Shown in pieces: positions 16,858-25,751 of a stretch of DNA of 36,084 bases (its first letter is position 1; every line of letters starts with the position of its first letter). The notes below the pieces were generated by a model. That model searched no databases, was not told the DNA's origin, and was given only the letters and a program-made list of their open reading frames with translations. Both the position numbers and the translations under genes were made by a program. Source of the DNA: Bacillota bacterium (GTDB taxonomy: Bacteria; Sysuimicrobiota; Sysuimicrobiia; Sysuimicrobiales; Segetimicrobiaceae). The stretch is from contig JAJPJL010000055.1 in NCBI GenBank assembly GCA_021324255.1, positions 1 to 36,084 of the forward strand. The letters are read 5' to 3'.

Positions 16858-17775
16858 TCAGTGGCGCGCGCCGCCTCGGTCCGGCGCGTGGACACGCACG
16901 CGCTCGGCGCCGCTGTACACGTTGAACTGCTCGCCCCGGAGAAAGCCCACCAGGCTCACCCCGAACTCCCGCGCGGTGTCGACCGCCAGGCTGCTCGGCG
17001 CGGAGACGGCGCAAAAGACGGGGATCCCCGCCGCCGCCGCTTTCTGCACCAGCTCGAAGCTGGCGCGCCCGCTGACCATCACGACATGGAGATCGAGCGG
17101 GACGCGCCCGTCGAGCCAGGCCCAACCGACCAGCTTGTCCATCGCGTTGTGCCGGCCGACGTCCTCCCGGAGCGCCACGAGACGACCGTCGCGGTCGAAG
17201 AGCGCGGCGGCATGCAGGCCGCCGGTGGCGGCGAACAGGCTCTGCGCCCGCCGGAGCGTCCCCGGCAGCGCGGCGAGCGTCCCCGCGTCCACGACGAGGC
17301 CGCCGCGGACATGCGCGAGACCGCGCAGGCGCAGCGCCTCCAGGGTCGCCTTGCCGCAGACGCCGCACGCGCTCGTCGTGTAGAAGTGCCGTTCCAGCGC
17401 GGCGAGCGCCGGCAGGACCGGCGACCGCAGCGCGACGTTCACGATGTTGTACTGCTGCGCGCGGTCGACCTCGGGGTCCGCGCAATACGACATGCGCGCG
17501 ATCTCATGCGGGTCGCGGAGCACGCCCTCGCCGAACAGGAACCCCGCGGCGAGCTCGAAGTCATGGCCGGGCGTGCGCATCGTCACCGCGACCGTGCGCG
17601 TCTCGCCCCCGGCCACGAGCCGGATCTCGAGCGGCTCCTCGGTGGCGACGACGTCGGTGCGCGGGGCGCTCGCGCCCGCGCGCACGGTGTGGATCGCGAC
17701 GCGCGTCTTCGCCCCGGCCCGCACGGCCGTGCCGGCCGGCTCCCCGCGGCGGGGTACGCGCCCCGCGCTGCCCAT
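16858..17775 (-). CDS. fdhD: Formate dehydrogenase accessory sulfurtransferase FdhD
   Basis: Delivers sulfur from a cysteine desulfurase to the Mo(or W)-bis-MGD cofactor, required for active formate dehydrogenase. 305 aa. The redox-active CGVCGK motif is present (Cys137/Cys140), with TEEPLEIRL and MRTPGHDFELAAGFL before it and DVGRHNAMDKL and VSGRASFELVQKA after it, all FdhD hallmarks. Start ATG at 17775 with GAGGAGGGCGGG upstream; the frame is open further into the neighbouring gene. Last gene of the minus-strand formate dehydrogenase region, 32 nt after a solute-binding protein gene. Confidence 0.95.
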   Translation of the reverse strand: MGSAGRVPRRGEPAGTAVRAGAKTRVAIHTVRAGASAPRTDVVATEEPLEIRLVAGGETRTVAVTMRTPGHDFELAAGFLFGEGVLRDPHEIARMSYCADPEVDRAQQYNIVNVALRSPVLPALAALERHFYTTSACGVCGKATLEALRLRGLAHVRGGLVVDAGTLAALPGTLRRAQSLFAATGGLHAAALFDRDGRLVALREDVGRHNAMDKLVGWAWLDGRVPLDLHVVMVSGRASFELVQKAAAAGIPVFCAVSAPSSLAVDTAREFGVSLVGFLRGEQFNVYSGAERVRVHAPDRGGARH

Positions 17776-17807
17776 GACGATCCCGCCCTCCTCGGTCGGG
17801 GCGGCCC

Positions 17808-19418
17808 CTACTTCCACGTCGCGTAGATGGCCGCCCACTTCTCCGTCGGTACGATGCTCACGCCCTCGAGGTGGCTGCTCGTCACCACGTAGAAGTTCTG
17901 CGCCCACAGGAAGATCCAGGGCGCGTCATGCCAGATCAGCTCCTGCGCCTGCTTGTAGATCGCCCGGCGCTGCTCCGGGTTCATGGTCGTCTGCCCGGCG
18001 AGCAGCAGCTCGTCCACCTTGGCATCCTTGTAGAACGTGGAGATGTAGCCGTGCGGCGGCCACAGGCCGGAGTAAAAGACGCCGAAGAGCTGGGAGGCCG
18101 CATCCAGGTACGGACCGGCCTGCCCGAGCATGTACATCTGAATCGGCGTGCGGTCCGCCGGGGTCGCGAGCGCGCCGATGTAGCTCGGCCAGTCGGCGGT
18201 CTCCACCGCGGCCTTGACGCCGACGTTGGCGAGCTGCGCGGCGATGGCCTGGGCGGCCTGATAGTCCTGGATGTAGCGGCCCGTGGGCGCCCGGAACGCG
18301 ACGCTGAAGCCTTGGGGGTAGCCGGCTTCGGTGAGCATCCGCTTCGCGCGCGCGGGATCGAACGGCCAGCCGCCCGGCTGGATCCGCGTGTAGCCGAACT
18401 GGTTGGGCGTCGTCGGCGCTTCCAGCACGGTCGCGAGGCCGAAGAGCACACTGTGGATGATGGCCTGCTTGTTGACGGCGTAGTTCATCGCCTGGCGCAC
18501 GCGCACGTCCTTGAACGGGCCCCAGAGGTTGTTCATCCCCACCCAGATCGCGCGGTCGGTCGGGCCCTCCACGACGCGCAGCGACGGATCCCTGCGCATC
18601 GCGGGCACGTCGGGCGCGGGCGGCGCGAACGCCATCTGCACGTCGCCCGCGCGCAGCATGGTCTCGCGGGTCCCCGCGTTGGGGACGACGCGGAAGATCA
18701 CCTGGTCGAAGTACGGCTTGCGCCCCCAGTAATCGGGATTGCGCACCAGCGTGATGTGGTCGCCGTGCACCCACTCCTTGAAGATGTACGGCCCGGAGCC
18801 GGCGTTGACCGGTCCCAGCGCGAGCTTGGCGTTCCCCAACGCCTTGGCCGCGGCCGGCGACACGATCTCGGCCGCCGTGGTCGCCAGCTCTTCCGGCAGC
18901 GTGGCGCTCGGCTCCTTGAAGTGCAGCACGATCGTGTAGGGGTCGGGGATCTCGATCCGGCCGGTGTCGAGCGCGCTCCAGTAGTAGCGTGACGAATTCC
19001 GGACCGACGGATCCAGCATCCGCTCGATGTTGAACTTGACGGCCTGCGCGTCGAAGGGGGTGCCGTCTTGGAACTTGACGCCCTGGCGCAGCTTGAACGT
19101 GTACGTGCGGCCGTCGGGGCTCGCCGTCCACGAGGTCGCGAGCTGCCCGACGAGCTTGGTGTACTGCGGCTGCCCCGGGGCGACGCCGGACCGCTCGTCG
19201 TTGTACCAGATCAGCGGATCGTAGATGTAGTCCACGATGTTCGAGACCGTGGCGGTCGTCTGCCCGGCCGGGTCCAACGTGTCCGCGTCGATGCCGAGCG
19301 CGATCGCAAGGGTGGCCGGCGCCGCCGCCAGGCCGCCTCCCGGCACGCCCGCCAGCGCCGCAAAACCGAGACACGCAGCGACACCGGCCGTCACAAGCCG
19401 CGTCGTTAGGGTGGCCAT
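17808..19418 (-). CDS. ABC transporter substrate-binding protein, family 5 (peptide/nickel type)
   Basis: 536 aa secreted or lipid-anchored binding protein. N terminus MATLTTRLVTAGVAACLGFAAL is a signal peptide; VAAC could be a lipobox, though an AAAPA cleavage site is equally possible. ALGIDADTLDPAGQTT, YDPLIWYNDE, WTASPDGRTYTFKLRQGVKFQDGTPFDAQAV and the long C-terminal lobe are typical of OppA/DppA/NikA-type proteins. The ligand cannot be inferred. No permease or ATPase of this class is in the window, so it is an orphan here, between the formate dehydrogenase genes and fdhD. Confidence 0.88.
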   Translation of the reverse strand: MATLTTRLVTAGVAACLGFAALAGVPGGGLAAAPATLAIALGIDADTLDPAGQTTATVSNIVDYIYDPLIWYNDERSGVAPGQPQYTKLVGQLATSWTASPDGRTYTFKLRQGVKFQDGTPFDAQAVKFNIERMLDPSVRNSSRYYWSALDTGRIEIPDPYTIVLHFKEPSATLPEELATTAAEIVSPAAAKALGNAKLALGPVNAGSGPYIFKEWVHGDHITLVRNPDYWGRKPYFDQVIFRVVPNAGTRETMLRAGDVQMAFAPPAPDVPAMRRDPSLRVVEGPTDRAIWVGMNNLWGPFKDVRVRQAMNYAVNKQAIIHSVLFGLATVLEAPTTPNQFGYTRIQPGGWPFDPARAKRMLTEAGYPQGFSVAFRAPTGRYIQDYQAAQAIAAQLANVGVKAAVETADWPSYIGALATPADRTPIQMYMLGQAGPYLDAASQLFGVFYSGLWPPHGYISTFYKDAKVDELLLAGQTTMNPEQRRAIYKQAQELIWHDAPWIFLWAQNFYVVTSSHLEGVSIVPTEKWAAIYATWK

Positions 19419-19497
19419 ATCATCCGCCCCACGGGGGGCACCCCCTTTCGGCGTCCCGCCGCCGGGCAGTGATTGCGCGCCGCGCACGACTCGGGGA

Positions 19498-19576: not shown

Positions 19577-19624
19577 GACGGCCGGCTTGAACCCTTGTCG
19601 GAGTTCGGCAATGACGCATCAGCG
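19577..19624 (+). repeat. Dispersed intergenic repeat, copy B
   Basis: 48 bp, collinear with copy A (36/48 identical) and matching copy C in its first 28 bp (24/28). Contains CGGCCGGCTTGAACCCTTG and ends GACGCATCAGCG. As in copy A, the final part includes the stop codon (19621-19619) of the adjacent minus-strand gene, here the iron-sulfur half of formate dehydrogenase. The stem change GCCGG to GTCGG keeps a G-U pair. Confidence 0.6.
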
Positions 19625-20458
19625 GCCGCCCGGATCCGGGTTCACATACGTAAATCCGAACCGTCCCTTGACGCACAGGTTGCCGCGCGTGATGTCGTGG
19701 TCCGCGGGAGACGTGACCTTGACGATGCGGTTGCCCTGCACGTGCAGCTCGAGGGCGCAGCCCACGCCGCAGTACGGGCAGATCGTCTCCGCAACGTGCT
19801 GCCGGCTCTCGTCCCACTCGCCCGCCTGCCGCATCCGGTGTTCGATCAGGGGCATCAGGGCGCCGGTCGGGCACACCGCCACGCAGTTTCCGCAGAAGAC
19901 ACAGCGTGACTCCAGGAGCGGCGCGTCGGCCCCGGTGTCGATGCGGGCCGCAAACCCGCGGCCGGCGACCGTCAGCGCAAACGTATGCTGGGCGTCCTCG
20001 CCGCAGGCTTCGACGCACTTGTAGCAGAGGATGCACTTCGCGTAGTCGCGTACGTACAGGTCGTTGTCGTCGCGCAGCGGTTCGAGGACCCGCGCGACGT
20101 CGCTGCCAAACCGCGCCGGGTCGCCGTGGTACGCGGCGAGGTGCGCGGCGAGCTCGGGCGCCGTGGAGGTGTCGACCGACGACGCGAGCATCTCGAGGAC
20201 GACCTTGCGGGCCCGGCGGACGCGCTCGGTGTCCGTCCGCACCCGCATCCCGGGTTCCACGCGGCGCGAGCAGGACGGCACGAGGGCGCGGCTGCCCTCC
20301 ACCTCTACGACACAGGCCCGGCAGACGTTGACCGGCGTCAGGTTGGGATGGTAGCAGAGGGTGGGCGCGTCCATGCCGGCGCGCCGGAGCGCTTGCAGGA
20401 TCGTCATCCCCTCGTCCGCCCCGAGGGTCCGCCCGTCGACCTCGATGACAATGCTCAT
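19619..20458 (-). CDS. Formate dehydrogenase alpha subunit, detached N-terminal iron-sulfur half
   Basis: 279 aa electron-transfer protein. Domains in order: [2Fe-2S] ferredoxin-like (Cys35, 46, 49, 63); two [4Fe-4S] ferredoxin motifs (Cys142/145/148/152 and Cys186/189/192/196); then the small [4Fe-4S] domain that in one-chain enzymes starts the molybdopterin domain (ICPYCGVGC with Cys227/230/234, and NLCVKGRFG with Cys262). The His-Cys cluster seen in NuoG and many FdhA proteins is missing; residues 91-140 have no Cys. The protein ends FTYVNPDPGGR, exactly where homologues continue into PDRLxxPLIR, which here begins the catalytic gene 22260-24224. ATG overlaps the NuoF-like stop (ATGA). Confidence 0.88.
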   Translation of the reverse strand: MSIVIEVDGRTLGADEGMTILQALRRAGMDAPTLCYHPNLTPVNVCRACVVEVEGSRALVPSCSRRVEPGMRVRTDTERVRRARKVVLEMLASSVDTSTAPELAAHLAAYHGDPARFGSDVARVLEPLRDDNDLYVRDYAKCILCYKCVEACGEDAQHTFALTVAGRGFAARIDTGADAPLLESRCVFCGNCVAVCPTGALMPLIEHRMRQAGEWDESRQHVAETICPYCGVGCALELHVQGNRIVKVTSPADHDITRGNLCVKGRFGFTYVNPDPGGR

Positions 20459-21732
20459 ACGACCTCACCCGGGCGTCCGTGCGCCGCGCTCGCGCCGCCG
20501 TTGCTCGACGACGGCGCGCCCGGCCGGAGCGCGAGCGCGCTCAGCACCGCGCCGGCCGCCGTTTGACCGAGGCCGCAGATGGACGCGTCCGTCATCGCCG
20601 CGCCGATGTCCGCGAGCAGTTGCGGGTCCTCCGGCCGCGCCCGGCCCGACGCCAACCGCGTGACGATCTCCAGCTGCCGCTGCGTGCCGACCCGGCACGG
20701 GACGCACTGGCCGCACGATTCCTCCTGGAAAAACCGGGCCACCCGCAGCACGATATCCCACAACGACGCCGTCTCGTCGAGCACGATCACGGCGCCGGAT
20801 CCCACGGTACCCCCGACGGGCTGGAGGCCCTCGAAGGTCAACGGCAGATCCAACCGGTCGGGACCGAGGAACGTGCCGGCGGCCCCGCCGCACAGCACGG
20901 CCTGCAGGCGCCGGCCCCGCCATACGCCGCCCGCCAGCGCCAGCAGCTCCCCGAGCGTCGTCCCGAACGGGACCTCGTACAACCCCGGGCGCTCGACGTG
21001 CCCGCTCACGCAGAACAGCTTCGTCCCGGTGGACCGGTCCGTGCCGTAGCGCCGGAACCCGGAGGCGCCCTCCAGTACCACGATCGGGACGTTGCACAGC
21101 GTCTCCACGTTGTTGACGAGCGTGGGGTCGCCAAACAGGCCCGCCTGCGTCGGGAACGGGGGCTTGTTGCGCGGTTCGCCGCGGCGGCCCTCGACCGAGT
21201 TGAACAGCGCCGTCTCCTCGCCGCAGATGTAGGCGCCCGCGCCGCGGACGACGCGGATCCAAAAGGCGCGCCCGGTCCCCGCGACGTCGGCGCCGAGGAG
21301 CCCCGCGCGCTCCGCCTGGTCGATCGCCCGCCGGAGACGCGCGGCGGCGAGCCGGTACTCGCCGCGCACGTAGACGAGCCCGTCCTCGGCTGCGACCGTG
21401 AGCCCGGCGATCGTCATCGCCTCCACGACGGCGAACGGGTCCTGCTCCATCAGCACGCGATCCTTAAAGGTGCCCGGCTCGCTCTCGTCGGCGTTGCAGA
21501 CCACCCGCCGCCGTCCGGCGGCTTCCGCGACGGCGCGCCACTTGCGGCCGGCCGGAAACGCCGCGCCGCCGCGCCCGAGCAGTCCCGAGGCCTCCAGCTC
21601 GGACAGCACCCACGCCGGCCCGCGCTCCGCGACGCGTGCAAGCGCCGCGTAGCCGCCGAGCGACCGGTACGCCTCGAGGCTCTCCGGATCAGCGACGCCG
21701 GCCCGCGCCAGGAGCCGCCGGACCTCAGGCAT
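20455..21732 (-). CDS. NADH-binding NuoF-like beta subunit of NAD-dependent formate dehydrogenase
   Basis: 425 aa. Carries the NADH site GLLGRGGAAFPAGRKW (about residues 50-65), FMN-binding CNADESEPGTFKDR and GAGAYICGEETAL, and the C-terminal [4Fe-4S] motif ESCGQCVPC with Cys340/343/346 and distal Cys386 in SICGLGQ. The role is to pass electrons from the iron-sulfur chain to NAD+, or the reverse. The ATG at 21732 lies inside the end of the NuoE-like gene (8-nt overlap); the frame is open upstream but lacks conserved sequence. Like FdsB/HoxF but without a fused NuoE domain. Tail after residue 400 is Gly/Ala/Ser rich. Confidence 0.92.
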   Translation of the reverse strand: MPEVRRLLARAGVADPESLEAYRSLGGYAALARVAERGPAWVLSELEASGLLGRGGAAFPAGRKWRAVAEAAGRRRVVCNADESEPGTFKDRVLMEQDPFAVVEAMTIAGLTVAAEDGLVYVRGEYRLAAARLRRAIDQAERAGLLGADVAGTGRAFWIRVVRGAGAYICGEETALFNSVEGRRGEPRNKPPFPTQAGLFGDPTLVNNVETLCNVPIVVLEGASGFRRYGTDRSTGTKLFCVSGHVERPGLYEVPFGTTLGELLALAGGVWRGRRLQAVLCGGAAGTFLGPDRLDLPLTFEGLQPVGGTVGSGAVIVLDETASLWDIVLRVARFFQEESCGQCVPCRVGTQRQLEIVTRLASGRARPEDPQLLADIGAAMTDASICGLGQTAAGAVLSALALRPGAPSSSNGGASAAHGRPGEVV

Positions 21733-22270
21733 CGCCGCCCGCCTGCCCGAGCGCCGCCGCGATGACGCCGGCCGTCGCGTGCCCGAGTTCGCGCCCGCCG
21801 GCCACGGCGACGGGCGCTTCCTCGCACCGCCCGAGGCACGGCACCGTCTCCCAGTCGACCGCCGGCGGCGCCGCGGCGCCCCGGCCGTTCCGCGCATCGC
21901 CGTGCGCCCCGCCCGCAAATCGCCGCGGCGGTCCGTAGCGGGCCTGGAGGTCGCGCACGAGGACATCGGCGCCCCGCAGCCGGCACGATACGTCGTCGCA
22001 GACGTGGAGGATCGTGCCGCGCGGCGGGTCGAGCCGGAACAACGCGTAAAACGTCGCGACCCCCCAGACGTCGGGAAATGGCAGGTTCATCCGGTCGGCG
22101 AGGTGATGGAGCGCGCCGCGGGGCAACCAGCCGAGATCGTCCTGCACCGCATGGAGGAGCGGCAGCAGGTCGGACCGGCGCGGCTCGGCGCCCACGCGGG
22201 CGAGGGCCCGGTCCACCGCCTCGCGCTCCCGCTCGCTAGCGGGCGCCGGGGGATTCGGCTCAATCGGCAC
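21725..22270 (-). CDS. NuoE-like [2Fe-2S] gamma subunit of NAD-dependent formate dehydrogenase
   Basis: 181 aa thioredoxin-like ferredoxin. The [2Fe-2S] ligands are HVCDDVSC (Cys91, Cys96) and VPCLGRC (Cys145, Cys149), the standard C-x4-C / C-x3-C NuoE pattern. The N-terminal helical part with LLPLLHAVQDDLGWLP and VWGVATFYALFRLDPP is also typical. A loop of about 20 residues rich in Gly/Ala/Arg (120-138) is inserted before the second Cys pair. Start is GTG at 22270, overlapping the catalytic gene by 11 nt, with GGAGGAG upstream. Works with the NuoF-like subunit as the diaphorase module. Confidence 0.92.
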   Translation of the reverse strand: MPIEPNPPAPASEREREAVDRALARVGAEPRRSDLLPLLHAVQDDLGWLPRGALHHLADRMNLPFPDVWGVATFYALFRLDPPRGTILHVCDDVSCRLRGADVLVRDLQARYGPPRRFAGGAHGDARNGRGAAAPPAVDWETVPCLGRCEEAPVAVAGGRELGHATAGVIAAALGQAGGDA

Positions 22271-24224
22271 GCGACATCTCCTCCTGTCCCACGACCTCGT
22301 CGCGCCACCCGCCCCGCGCCGCGACGCGCTCGATGGCCACCGCCGTCGCCTTGAACTCCGCGGTCCCCGATTTCGGATCCCACGCGTCGATCGTGAGCAC
22401 GTTGGTCGGCACCGTGTCGGGATGGTGGAGCGTCATGAAGCAGAGCCCGGGCGCGAGCGTGTCGTCGAGCTTGACCGGTACGAGGAGCGACCCGCGGCGG
22501 GACCGGACGCGCGCGAGATCCCCGGGCTCAAGGCCGAGCCGCCGGGCGTCCGCGGGCCAGATGCAGAGGTACTCGGTCTGCGGGCGCGGCGCCGCGTAGC
22601 CGCGCGACTGGGTGCCGGTGTTGTAGAATTCGAGCCTGCGCCCCGTCGTGAGCATAAACGGGTACGCGTCGTCCGGCTGCTCCACGGGCGGTTCCCACCG
22701 GACCGGGATGAGCGGCGCCCGCGGGCCGTCGACCGGACGCCGCCACAGGCGCTCGTGCAGGAACTTGCTGCCCGGGTGGCCCTCGTCGGGGCACGGCCAC
22801 TGCAGCCCGCCGGCCTCGGCGAGCCGGGCGTAGGACATCCCGCGGTGCCGCGCGGAGAGGCGCCGGACCTCGTTCCACACGTCCTCCGCGCCCGTGTACC
22901 CCCACCGGTGCCCCAGGCGGCCGGCGAGGTCTTGCAGGATGGCGATGTCGTCGCGCGCCTCCCCCGGGGGATCGACCGCCTTGCGCATCAGCTGCACCCG
23001 CCGCTCGGAGTTCGTGACCGTGCCGTCGCACTCGCACCACGACAACGCCGACGGCAGGACGACGTCGGCGATCTCGGCGGTCTGGTTGAGCGCGACGTCC
23101 TGGAGCACGACGAAGTCGAGGCCGCCGAGCAGCTCGCGGCTGCGGTGGAGATTGGCCTCCGACATGAGCGGGTTTTCGCCGATGATGTAGGCGGCGCGGA
23201 TCTCGCCGCGCTCCATGCCCTCGAACATCAGGCTCTGGTGGCGCCCGCGCCGGGACGGGAGCGCCGTGCCCCAGGCGGCCTCAAACGGCGCGCGCTGCTC
23301 CGCATCCTCCACGTCCGCGCCCCCGGGCAGGCGGTTCGGAATGGCCCCCATGTCGCCGCCGCCCTGCACGTTGTTCTGGCCGCGCAGCGGGTCGAGGCCG
23401 GAGCCGTACCGCCCGACGTGCCCGGTGATGTTGGCCAGGTTGCACAGCGCATACACGCCGTCCGTCGCGTTGTGATGCTCGGTGATGCCGAGCGTCCAGC
23501 AGATGATCGCGCGCGGCGCCCCGGCGTACATCCGGGCCACACGGCGGACGGTGTCCGCCGCGATGCCGGTGACGCGCTCCGCGAACTCCGGCGTGTAGGT
23601 CGCGATCGCCTCGCGGTACGCCTCGACCCCGGTCGTGGCGTGCGCGATGAACTCGCGGTGCTCGAGCCCCTCCTCGAAGATCACCCGCGCGATCGCGTTC
23701 GCGAGCGCGATATCCCCGCCGACGCGGATCGGCAGGTGCAGGTGCGCGAGCTGCGCCGTCGGCGTGCGCCGCGGATCGACGACGACGAGGCGCGCGCCGT
23801 TGCGCATGCCGCGCAGCATGTGATGGAACATGATCGGGTGGGTCTCGCGCGGGTTGGACCCCCACAAAAACAGCAGGTCCGTGTGCTCCATCTCCTCGTA
23901 CGACGTCGTGCCGCCGCCCGCCCCGTACACCGTCTCCAGACCGGAGACGCTCGGCGCGTGTCAGGTCCGGTTGCAGCTGTCGATGTTGTTGGTCCCGAGC
24001 ACCACCCGCATGAACTTCTGCGCGACGAAGTTCACTTCGTTGGACGCCTTGGAGCAACTCAGGCAGCAGAAGGCGTCCGGCCCGTGGTCGCGGCGAATCT
24101 CGCGGAACCGCCGCGCCACCAGATCGAGCGCCTCGTCCCAGGCCGCCGGCGCAAGCGCGCCGGCCCGCCGGATCAAGGGCTGCGTCAACCGCGCCAACGG
24201 CCGCTGATACCCTCGTGCCGCCAT
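22260..24224 (-). CDS. fdhA: Selenocysteine-containing formate dehydrogenase, catalytic (molybdopterin) half, UGA readthrough
   Basis: One gene of 654 residues if the in-frame TGA at 23963-23961 is read as selenocysteine (Sec88). Before it: FCCLSCSKASNE with the conserved Lys, and LGTNNIDSCNRT; after it: HAPSVSGLETVYGAGGGTTS with the conserved His. This is the FdhF/FdhA active site T-[Sec/Cys]-H-A-P-S-V. A SECIS-like hairpin follows. The remainder (DLLFLWGSNPRETHP, VVVDPRRT, ITGHVGRYGSGLDPLRGQNNVQGGGDMG, ENPLMSEANLHR, then the C-terminal beta-barrel with GRRLEFYNTGTQSR) is a full molybdopterin oxidoreductase. It lacks the N-terminal CxxCxxxC [4Fe-4S] domain, supplied by the gene at 19619-20458. 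ATG at 24224 follows GGAGG. Confidence 0.93.
23931..23963 (-). promoter_or_regulatory. Selenocysteine UGA codon and bacterial SECIS hairpin
   Basis: TGA at 23963-23961, then 18 nt, then the apical loop GGUCU (23942-23938) closed by a perfect 7-bp stem CGUCUCC (23949-23943) / GGAGACG (23937-23931). From memory, E. coli fdhF has the same 18-nt distance and a GGUCU loop bound by SelB. The hairpin is coding sequence at the same time. This supports Sec insertion over termination. Confidence 0.9.
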
Positions 24225-24265
24225 CGCCGCCACCTCCGGGCTCCCGCTGTTCGGGGTTCAAAAAA

Positions 24266-24292: not shown

Positions 24293-25684
24293 TTACGGAG
24301 GCGGCGAGCCGAAGGCCACGAGGACGTTGGCGGGAGCGGCGGCGCCGACGAGCACGAGGTCGCGCCCGAGCGTGACGCCGCCCTTCCACGCGAACCCGCC
24401 GGTGGCGCCGTGCCACAGGACCCGGCCGGTCCGCGCGTCCACCGCCCACACGACGCCGGCGTAGTCCGCCGCGAACACCACGCCGCCCTGTGAGACCGCG
24501 GGCGACCCCAGGATCTGCTTCGCCCCCGTGAACTGCCAGACGATCCGGCCCGTCGCCGCATCGAGCGCCACGAGCCGCCCCGGCAGGTTTGGCGAAAACG
24601 TGGTCACGCCCGGCGGAAAGTCCTGCGTGCCGACGAAGATCCGGCCGAACCCGACGGCGCCGCTACCCAGAATTTCCGCGACCGCGGACGGGCCCGAGAG
24701 GCTGGTCCGCCACCGCAATGCGCCGGTCCGAGCGTCGACCATATAGTACGCGCCGTCCTTCTCGCCCGCGCCGACCCCGAGTCCCTGGGGGAGCACCACG
24801 AGATTCGGCGTCGCGAGGAAATCCTGATCCCGGGTGTCGTGAGGATACGTCGGCCCAAACGCCCACCGGAGGCGCCCCGTCGCGGCGTCGAGGGCCAGGA
24901 TCGAGTCCGACCCCACGTCGGGGCCGGCCGGCGGCGCGTCCTTCGGCGTCGGGTTCCCCGTGGCGACAAACAACGTGCCCGTCTGCGGATCGACGGACGG
25001 GCTGTCGAACACGCCCGCCCCGCCGCCGCCGGCGTACTGCGGAACGACGTACGTCCAGACGACGCCGCCGGTCACGGCGTCGAGCGCGACGAGGCGGCCG
25101 CGCGCGGTCGGCTCGTCGTAGATGCCGTCGATCCCCACGTAGACGCGGTTGCCCCACACGAGCGGCGCGGACCAGATCGTCTCGCTCTTGGACGGGTCGC
25201 CGACGCGGGTGCGCCACATGAATCCCCCGGTGGCGGCGTCGAGGCACACGACATCCGTCTCCGCCGTCGCGGCGTAGACCCGCGGCCCGGCGAGCGCGGG
25301 CGTTCCGTTGATGCCGAGCGTCGGGAACCCGTACGCGGTCTGGCCCCGCGCGCCGAGCGCGACGTGCCACCGCTCGGTTCCCGTGCGGAGATCCAGCGCG
25401 TACAACGTGCCCCTCGACGATCCCACGTAGGCGGTGCGCTCGTCCAGCGCCGGGCTGCCCGGGATCGCGCCGTCGGCCGCAAATCGCCAGATCGGGCGCA
25501 GCGCGCCCACCTTGGACGGGGCCATCCCGGCGTCCGGCTGGAACGACGACATGCCGAAGTCATGGCCCCGCATGGGCCACGCGGCTCCGGCGGGCGGGGC
25601 CGGCGGGGCTTGCGCCGCGGCGAGCGCGGCGAGCGTCAGGCACGCGCAGGCCGCGACGGCCGCGGCGCGGGATGCTCGGTGCAT
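24293..25684 (-). CDS. Secreted PQQ-type beta-propeller repeat protein
   Basis: 463 aa with an N-terminal signal peptide (MHRASRAAAVAACACLTLAALAAAQA), so exported. At least seven blades carry the signature [A/V]LDxxTGxxxW: YALDLRTGTERW, CLDAATGGFMW, ALDAVTGGVVW, ALDAATGRLRW, MVDARTGALRW, ALDAATGRIVW, AVDARTGRVLW. This is the quinoprotein-dehydrogenase-like fold. I see no clear catalytic Asp/Asn or heme c motif, so it may be a binding or scaffold propeller and not an enzyme. The ATG at 25684 follows GGAGGT. It lies between the sugar hydrolase gene (67-nt gap) and the formate dehydrogenase operon, same strand; functional link unproven. Confidence 0.85.
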   Translation of the reverse strand: MHRASRAAAVAACACLTLAALAAAQAPPAPPAGAAWPMRGHDFGMSSFQPDAGMAPSKVGALRPIWRFAADGAIPGSPALDERTAYVGSSRGTLYALDLRTGTERWHVALGARGQTAYGFPTLGINGTPALAGPRVYAATAETDVVCLDAATGGFMWRTRVGDPSKSETIWSAPLVWGNRVYVGIDGIYDEPTARGRLVALDAVTGGVVWTYVVPQYAGGGGAGVFDSPSVDPQTGTLFVATGNPTPKDAPPAGPDVGSDSILALDAATGRLRWAFGPTYPHDTRDQDFLATPNLVVLPQGLGVGAGEKDGAYYMVDARTGALRWRTSLSGPSAVAEILGSGAVGFGRIFVGTQDFPPGVTTFSPNLPGRLVALDAATGRIVWQFTGAKQILGSPAVSQGGVVFAADYAGVVWAVDARTGRVLWHGATGGFAWKGGVTLGRDLVLVGAAAPANVLVAFGSPPP

Positions 25685-25751
25685 GCCTACCTCCCACATC
25701 CGGTATCGGACGGGCGCGACGGTCTGTCCTTCGCCGCGCGCGGGCGGCCCG

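Follow-up and report, generated by a model that had tools for sequence, protein, structure and literature searches.

A predicted selenocysteine formate dehydrogenase whose alpha subunit is divided between two genes at opposite ends of a permuted operon

The window (the whole stretch of DNA that was analysed, 36,084 nucleotides) carries an operon that quite probably encodes a cytoplasmic, NAD-linked formate dehydrogenase with selenocysteine (Sec), the alpha subunit of which is encoded as two separate proteins; the assignment is made from sequence. The gene of the catalytic chain (fdhA-cat) and the gene of the iron-sulfur (FeS) protein carrying domain I are found at opposite ends of the operon. 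The genes overlap at their ends and all lie on the minus strand, in the order fdhA-cat, nuoE, nuoF, FeS/domain I; a gene encoding an SBP_bac_5 solute-binding protein and then fdhD follow. The split alpha subunit and the permuted operon are a more unusual feature than Sec itself. The Sec part is routine, a textbook case that adds a member to the commonest family of bacterial selenoproteins; among these, Sec formate dehydrogenase is the most widely distributed (PMC13188914; PMC5029168). The features are as follows.

22260 to 24224, minus strand: fdhA-cat, formate dehydrogenase catalytic chain (bis-PGD binding domains II-IV), with an internal UGA.
23961 to 23963, minus strand: predicted Sec codon UGA, equivalent by alignment to Sec140 of E. 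coli FdhF.
23931 to 23949, minus strand: SECIS-like apical stem-loop of 7 bp with loop GGUCU, CGUCUCC[GGUCU]GGAGACG.
21725 to 22270, minus strand: NuoE/FdsG-like [2Fe-2S] subunit (PF01257, 2.7e-25).
20455 to 21732, minus strand: NuoF/FdsB-like FMN/NAD-binding subunit (PF01512, 4.5e-45; PF10589, 1.1e-24).
19619 to 20458, minus strand: NuoG/FdsA-like iron-sulfur protein, with [2Fe-2S] and two [4Fe-4S] ferredoxin domains and a C-terminal Molybdop_Fe4S4 domain.
19640 to 19798, minus strand: split-off domain I, residues 221-273 of the FeS protein (C227, C230, C234, C262, K264).
16858 to 17907, minus strand: FdhD sulfurtransferase (PF02634, 1e-67; NF001943, 318 bits, over the cut-off).

The NuoF-like subunit also matches TIGR01959 (441 bits); its ORF opens at 21966, and the start at 21732 was chosen from homology, which begins near residue 85. 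The true start of fdhD is probably inside the ORF 16858-17907. FdhD sulfurtransferase is needed for formate dehydrogenase maturation. The SBP_bac_5 gene (17808-19487), between the FeS gene and fdhD, has a counterpart at this place in one congener (L046); no other split locus of the phylum showed it. Immediately upstream of the operon, and likewise on the minus strand, is a gene encoding a PQQ-type beta-propeller protein (24293-25699).

Two ORFs of the minus strand, 23961-24233 and 22260-23930, share one frame and are joined by TGA 23963-23961; the peptide across the junction is DSCNRT-U-HAPSVSGLE. An earlier note on this DNA had read them as a single gene at 22260-24224 with an in-frame UGA at the catalytic Sec/Cys site, which ordinary gene calling would break. 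All of this holds: gene calling indeed returned the two ORFs, the UGA aligns with Sec140 of FdhF, and the best and likely start is ATG 24224, 8 nt behind GGAGG at 24237-24233. The joined product matches PF00384 (7.5e-70) and PF01568 (4.3e-25). The active-site Sec/Cys, His and Arg of formate dehydrogenase alpha subunits are present as U91, H92 and R284, aligned with U140, H141 and R333 of FdhF (residues of fdhA-cat are counted in the frame opening at 24233). The in-frame TGA is kept in 9 of 9 near homologues of the phylum, a count that takes in the window's own genome, and in all 80 of the best relatives found in a scan of named genomes; the protein downstream of it is 55-94% identical among homologues. 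A second Sec codon, the terminal TGA 22262-22260, was proposed since a hairpin follows it; this was rejected, and the codon taken as a real stop, because the downstream peptide is unconserved and the codon is CGA in one homologue (L049).

The UGA is followed by a stem after 11 nt and by its loop after 18 nt. The earlier note had described an 18-nt space and then a 7-bp stem with a GGUCU loop: stem and loop stand, and the 18 nt reach the loop, the stem being at 11 nt. The likeness to fdhF geometry that it had claimed is real, as the register is that of E. coli fdhF (L140). The window has 607 TGA triplets, both strands counted; only that of fdhA-cat has a 7-bp stem at this offset, and the same triplet alone has GGTCT there; the hairpin is therefore not attributed to chance. 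All seven pairs are formed in 100% of cells among 15 homologues of the phylum, three of them changed on both sides, and the covariation score was reached by none of 500 shuffles. Across 95 homologous TGA sites (E. coli fdhF included), the GGTCT loop is kept at 92 and the four loop-proximal pairs at 94; the outermost pair is not conserved. GGUCU is absent at the hairpin position from all four Cys (TGC) homologues checked. Variant loops are GGGCU in two Rokubacteria (L061:3846, L064:6250) and AGUUU in Evansella (L119:6229). The fold z-score of the hairpin alone (-0.96) is unremarkable, as expected in GC-rich coding DNA. An Rfam search of the window gave no match, and the bacterial SECIS was assessed by alignment instead: a hairpin directly 3' of the UGA, a conserved G/U loop and covariation support were found.

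The source genome (3.7 Mb, 142 contigs, 95% complete) encodes the Sec machinery that had been anticipated elsewhere in it. On contig 83, selA (PF03841, 8e-132) adjoins selB, the product of which (646 aa) has GTPase, SelB-wing_2 and wing_3 winged-helix domains; tRNA-Sec (anticodon UCA) is located 1.5 kb after selB. Two TPP-enzyme ORFs (N- and C-terminal domains; L013:7882-9203) are found between selB and selC; judged by eye, the pair resembles sulfopyruvate/phosphonopyruvate decarboxylase. On contig 92, selD has its own in-frame TGA (ACAG-U-ASK; L142:3493-4413) and is a predicted selenoprotein; the genome would therefore encode at least two. In the phylum, selB matches over the cut-off were found in 31 of 43 genomes and tRNA-Sec matches over the gathering score in 36 of 43. 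Two genomes of one genus (g20), G039 and G040, have a UGA-containing fdhA, and selA and selB were found in neither assembly; in G040 this is explained by a contig break, since 90 bases separate the tRNA-Sec from a contig end, on the flank that carries selB in G035 and G036, and the reason is probably similar in G039.

Decoding of UGA 23963-23961 as Sec is thus predicted, and the prediction is supported. It is extremely improbable that the TGA is a true stop or a lesion and fdhA a broken gene (pseudogene or sequencing error): the two ORFs given by ordinary gene calling are what such a gene would yield, but the codon and the protein beyond it are conserved in all the homologues given above, the stem after it covaries and the genome has the full Sec machinery. 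Neither a genome devoid of selB and tRNA-Sec nor a TGC or TGT in place of the TGA, the two findings that the earlier note had named as evidence against Sec, was encountered.

The [4Fe-4S] domain I is absent from the catalytic chain and is found instead in ORF 19619-20458. The catalytic chain matches positions 52-672 of TIGR01591, and positions 1-49 match residues 225-273 of the FeS protein; fdhA-cat stays below the curated cut-off (647.6 versus 666.25 bits), a deficit that corresponds to positions 1-51, which are missing from it and are located in the FeS protein. Likewise, residues 6-53 of FdhF align to the FeS protein and residues 61 onward to the catalytic chain. The FeS protein matches PF13510 (2.9e-20), PF12838 (1.3e-10) and PF04879 (8.6e-20); C227, C230, C234, C262 and K264 of its domain I align with C8, C11, C15, C42 and K44 of FdhF. 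Across 13 homologues there is no variation at any of its 16 cluster cysteines, nor, within domain I, at the four Cys and the K44-equivalent Lys. Neither piece is over any cut-off of the curated NCBIfam models. AlphaFold models of both chains are poor (mean pLDDT 51 and 58). Alignments of the catalytic chain to the formate dehydrogenases nearest to it among solved structures begin at about residue 57-64, after domain I; they begin later in structures with a preceding N-terminal extension.

The split type is found in 9 genomes of the phylum (that of the window, four relatives in its family and four in another family), all with the order cat-nuoE-nuoF-FeS/domain I. Among the 80 named loci, 73 have a catalytic chain without domain I; the other 7 (Bacillaceae) have a fused domain I and no NuoE/F genes nearby. 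An FeS gene with domain I is visible downstream of the catalytic gene in 55 of the 73 split named loci; in the other 18, it is beyond the sequence examined or was not found in it. Both halves are visible in 64 loci of about a dozen phyla, and every one of them has domain I off the catalytic chain and on the FeS protein. The phyla, read from record titles, are Chloroflexota, Actinomycetota, Acidobacteriota, Planctomycetota, Gemmatimonadota, Rokuibacteriota, Bacillota, Spirochaetota, Eremiobacterota, Dormiibacterota and Thermomicrobiota, with a deltaproteobacterium. Most of the genomes are metagenome-assembled, as would be expected if the split were an artefact of assembly or binning, but it recurs in these 64 loci from many independent assemblies and in an isolate, Aquisphaera insulae JC669 (L065); this recurrence in an isolate refutes the artefact, which is given practically no weight. 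In a Chloroflexota/Thermomicrobiota subgroup (L073, L076, L082, L115, L128, L137), the catalytic gene and nuoE are some 2 to 5 kb apart, with other sequence between them; the split halves are therefore even farther apart.

In the tree of catalytic chains, a single branch separates the 82 split rows from the remaining ones; its SH-aLRT is 95, or 92 under a mixture model after removal of long branches. The Bacillaceae fused group adjoins the split rows. Branch support for a single origin of the split is moderate, and there are few fused sequences in the outgroup. Matches were selected by their similarity to the window, so that close relatives with a fused alpha subunit may be under-represented. 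For the split-off domain I, a closest relationship to its counterpart in the fused Bacillaceae sister group is not clear.

Relative to NuoE - NuoF - fused alpha, the order cat - NuoE - NuoF - FeS/domain I is circularly permuted. In another family of the phylum (L055-L059), nuoE and nuoF precede a fused FeS-domain I-catalytic gene with UGA; in one genome of a further family (L054), nuoF is accompanied by a fused gene with Cys. Comparison of gene order with these fused relatives gives the split order as the fused order cut after domain I and rotated. A fused ancestor, nuoE-nuoF-[FeS-domain I-cat], would thus have been cut between domain I and the remainder and cyclically permuted, possibly by tandem duplication of the operon and then loss of opposite parts. 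A search of a plasmid collection gave no match over 60% identity.

NAD-linked interconversion of formate and CO2, at an active site made from two chains, is the likely function. SelB and tRNA-Sec would decode the UGA as Sec at the following stem-loop; Sec, His and Arg of the catalytic chain would hold and serve a Mo/W-bis-PGD centre, and formate would be oxidised at this Sec-ligated centre. The C-terminus of the FeS protein would supply in trans the proximal [4Fe-4S] cluster and also the Lys that is located between cluster and cofactor in FdhF. Electrons would pass from the [4Fe-4S] of domain I through the clusters of the FeS protein and the NuoE/NuoF-like pair to NAD+; CO2 reduction by the reverse flow is the alternative direction.

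Two other functional readings were weighed. The catalytic chain could work without a proximal cluster or take one from another protein, the FeS protein serving NuoEF alone; NuoG-like proteins can keep domain I for structure only. Against this stand the invariance of the four Cys and the K44-equivalent Lys, and the location of domain I, off one chain and on the other wherever both are visible; this reading is very unlikely. An enzyme that is not NAD-linked, in which the NuoE/NuoF/FeS module feeds ferredoxin, quinone or a bifurcating partner, is somewhat less improbable and still unlikely. It agrees with the lack, in split-type FeS proteins, of the His-ligated N-terminal cluster region of NuoG/FdsA, which is present in fused relatives; with the likeness of the FeS protein to HydA of bifurcating hydrogenases (NF040763, 164 bits, below the cut-off); and with the Bacillaceae sister group, devoid of nearby NuoE/F genes. 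However, the window encodes a NuoF-like subunit with FMN and 4Fe-4S domains, such a NuoF is also present in almost every split locus of sufficient length, and among solved structures the FeS protein is most closely related to the FdsA chains of NAD-dependent enzymes. NAD linkage is thus the preferred reading.

Among known systems, E. coli FdhF (formate dehydrogenase H, PDB 1AA6/1FDO) shares the Sec-UHAPS motif, Arg333 and 38% identity with the catalytic chain, and its SECIS has GGUCU at the same distance from the UGA, but it has domain I (residues about 1-60) in its chain and no NuoE/NuoF partners. The best sequence match among solved structures (627 bits) is the FdhF subunit of HDCR (PDB 7QV7), in which, by contrast, domain I is fused and the partners are an FeFe hydrogenase and HycB-like proteins. 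The Bacillaceae Sec-FdhF (Neobacillus, Mesobacillus, Evansella; L093, L112, L119, L134) keep UGA and SECIS; they differ by the fusion and the gene neighbourhood given above. B. subtilis ForC/YjgC (PDB 8RQZ; PMC8808070) also joins NuoG-like clusters to a formate dehydrogenase, but as one chain with Cys, the partner ForE (DUF1641) and a link to menaquinone (PMC8808070). Rhodobacter capsulatus FdsABGD (PDB 6TG9) and Methylorubrum FDH1 (PDB 7VW6) share the association of NuoE-, NuoF- and NuoG-like modules with a formate dehydrogenase. Such NAD-dependent enzymes use Cys, not Sec, and the catalytic subunits reviewed in 2026 are single chains that carry clusters and Cys ligands (PMC13397495). R. capsulatus FdsA (6TG9) is one chain, of which residues 168-303 match the FeS protein of the window and 301-952 the catalytic chain. 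The operon thus has the NuoE- and NuoF-like subunits of the Fds type; in place of a single-chain FdsA with a NuoG-like N-terminus, it has two genes, one at either end.

No description of a split formate dehydrogenase was found in the open-access literature; subscription journals may hold one. On balance, these loci appear to form a widespread, undescribed class found in about a dozen phyla, with a two-polypeptide active site that arose by a single ancient fission and operon permutation and kept Sec; as part of this joint reading, Sec and the bis-PGD pocket would be on one chain, and the proximal [4Fe-4S] cluster and the bridging lysine on the other. Annotation tends to miss the split enzyme twice: its gene is interrupted by the UGA, and both pieces score below the curated family cut-offs. 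Domain I ordinarily packs against the pterin cofactor, and the split offers a natural experiment on whether it can work in trans, a question relevant to the engineering of CO2-reducing enzymes. The conserved fission and operon permutation, with Sec in every copy seen and in many phyla, are a clean marker of the history of the enzyme.
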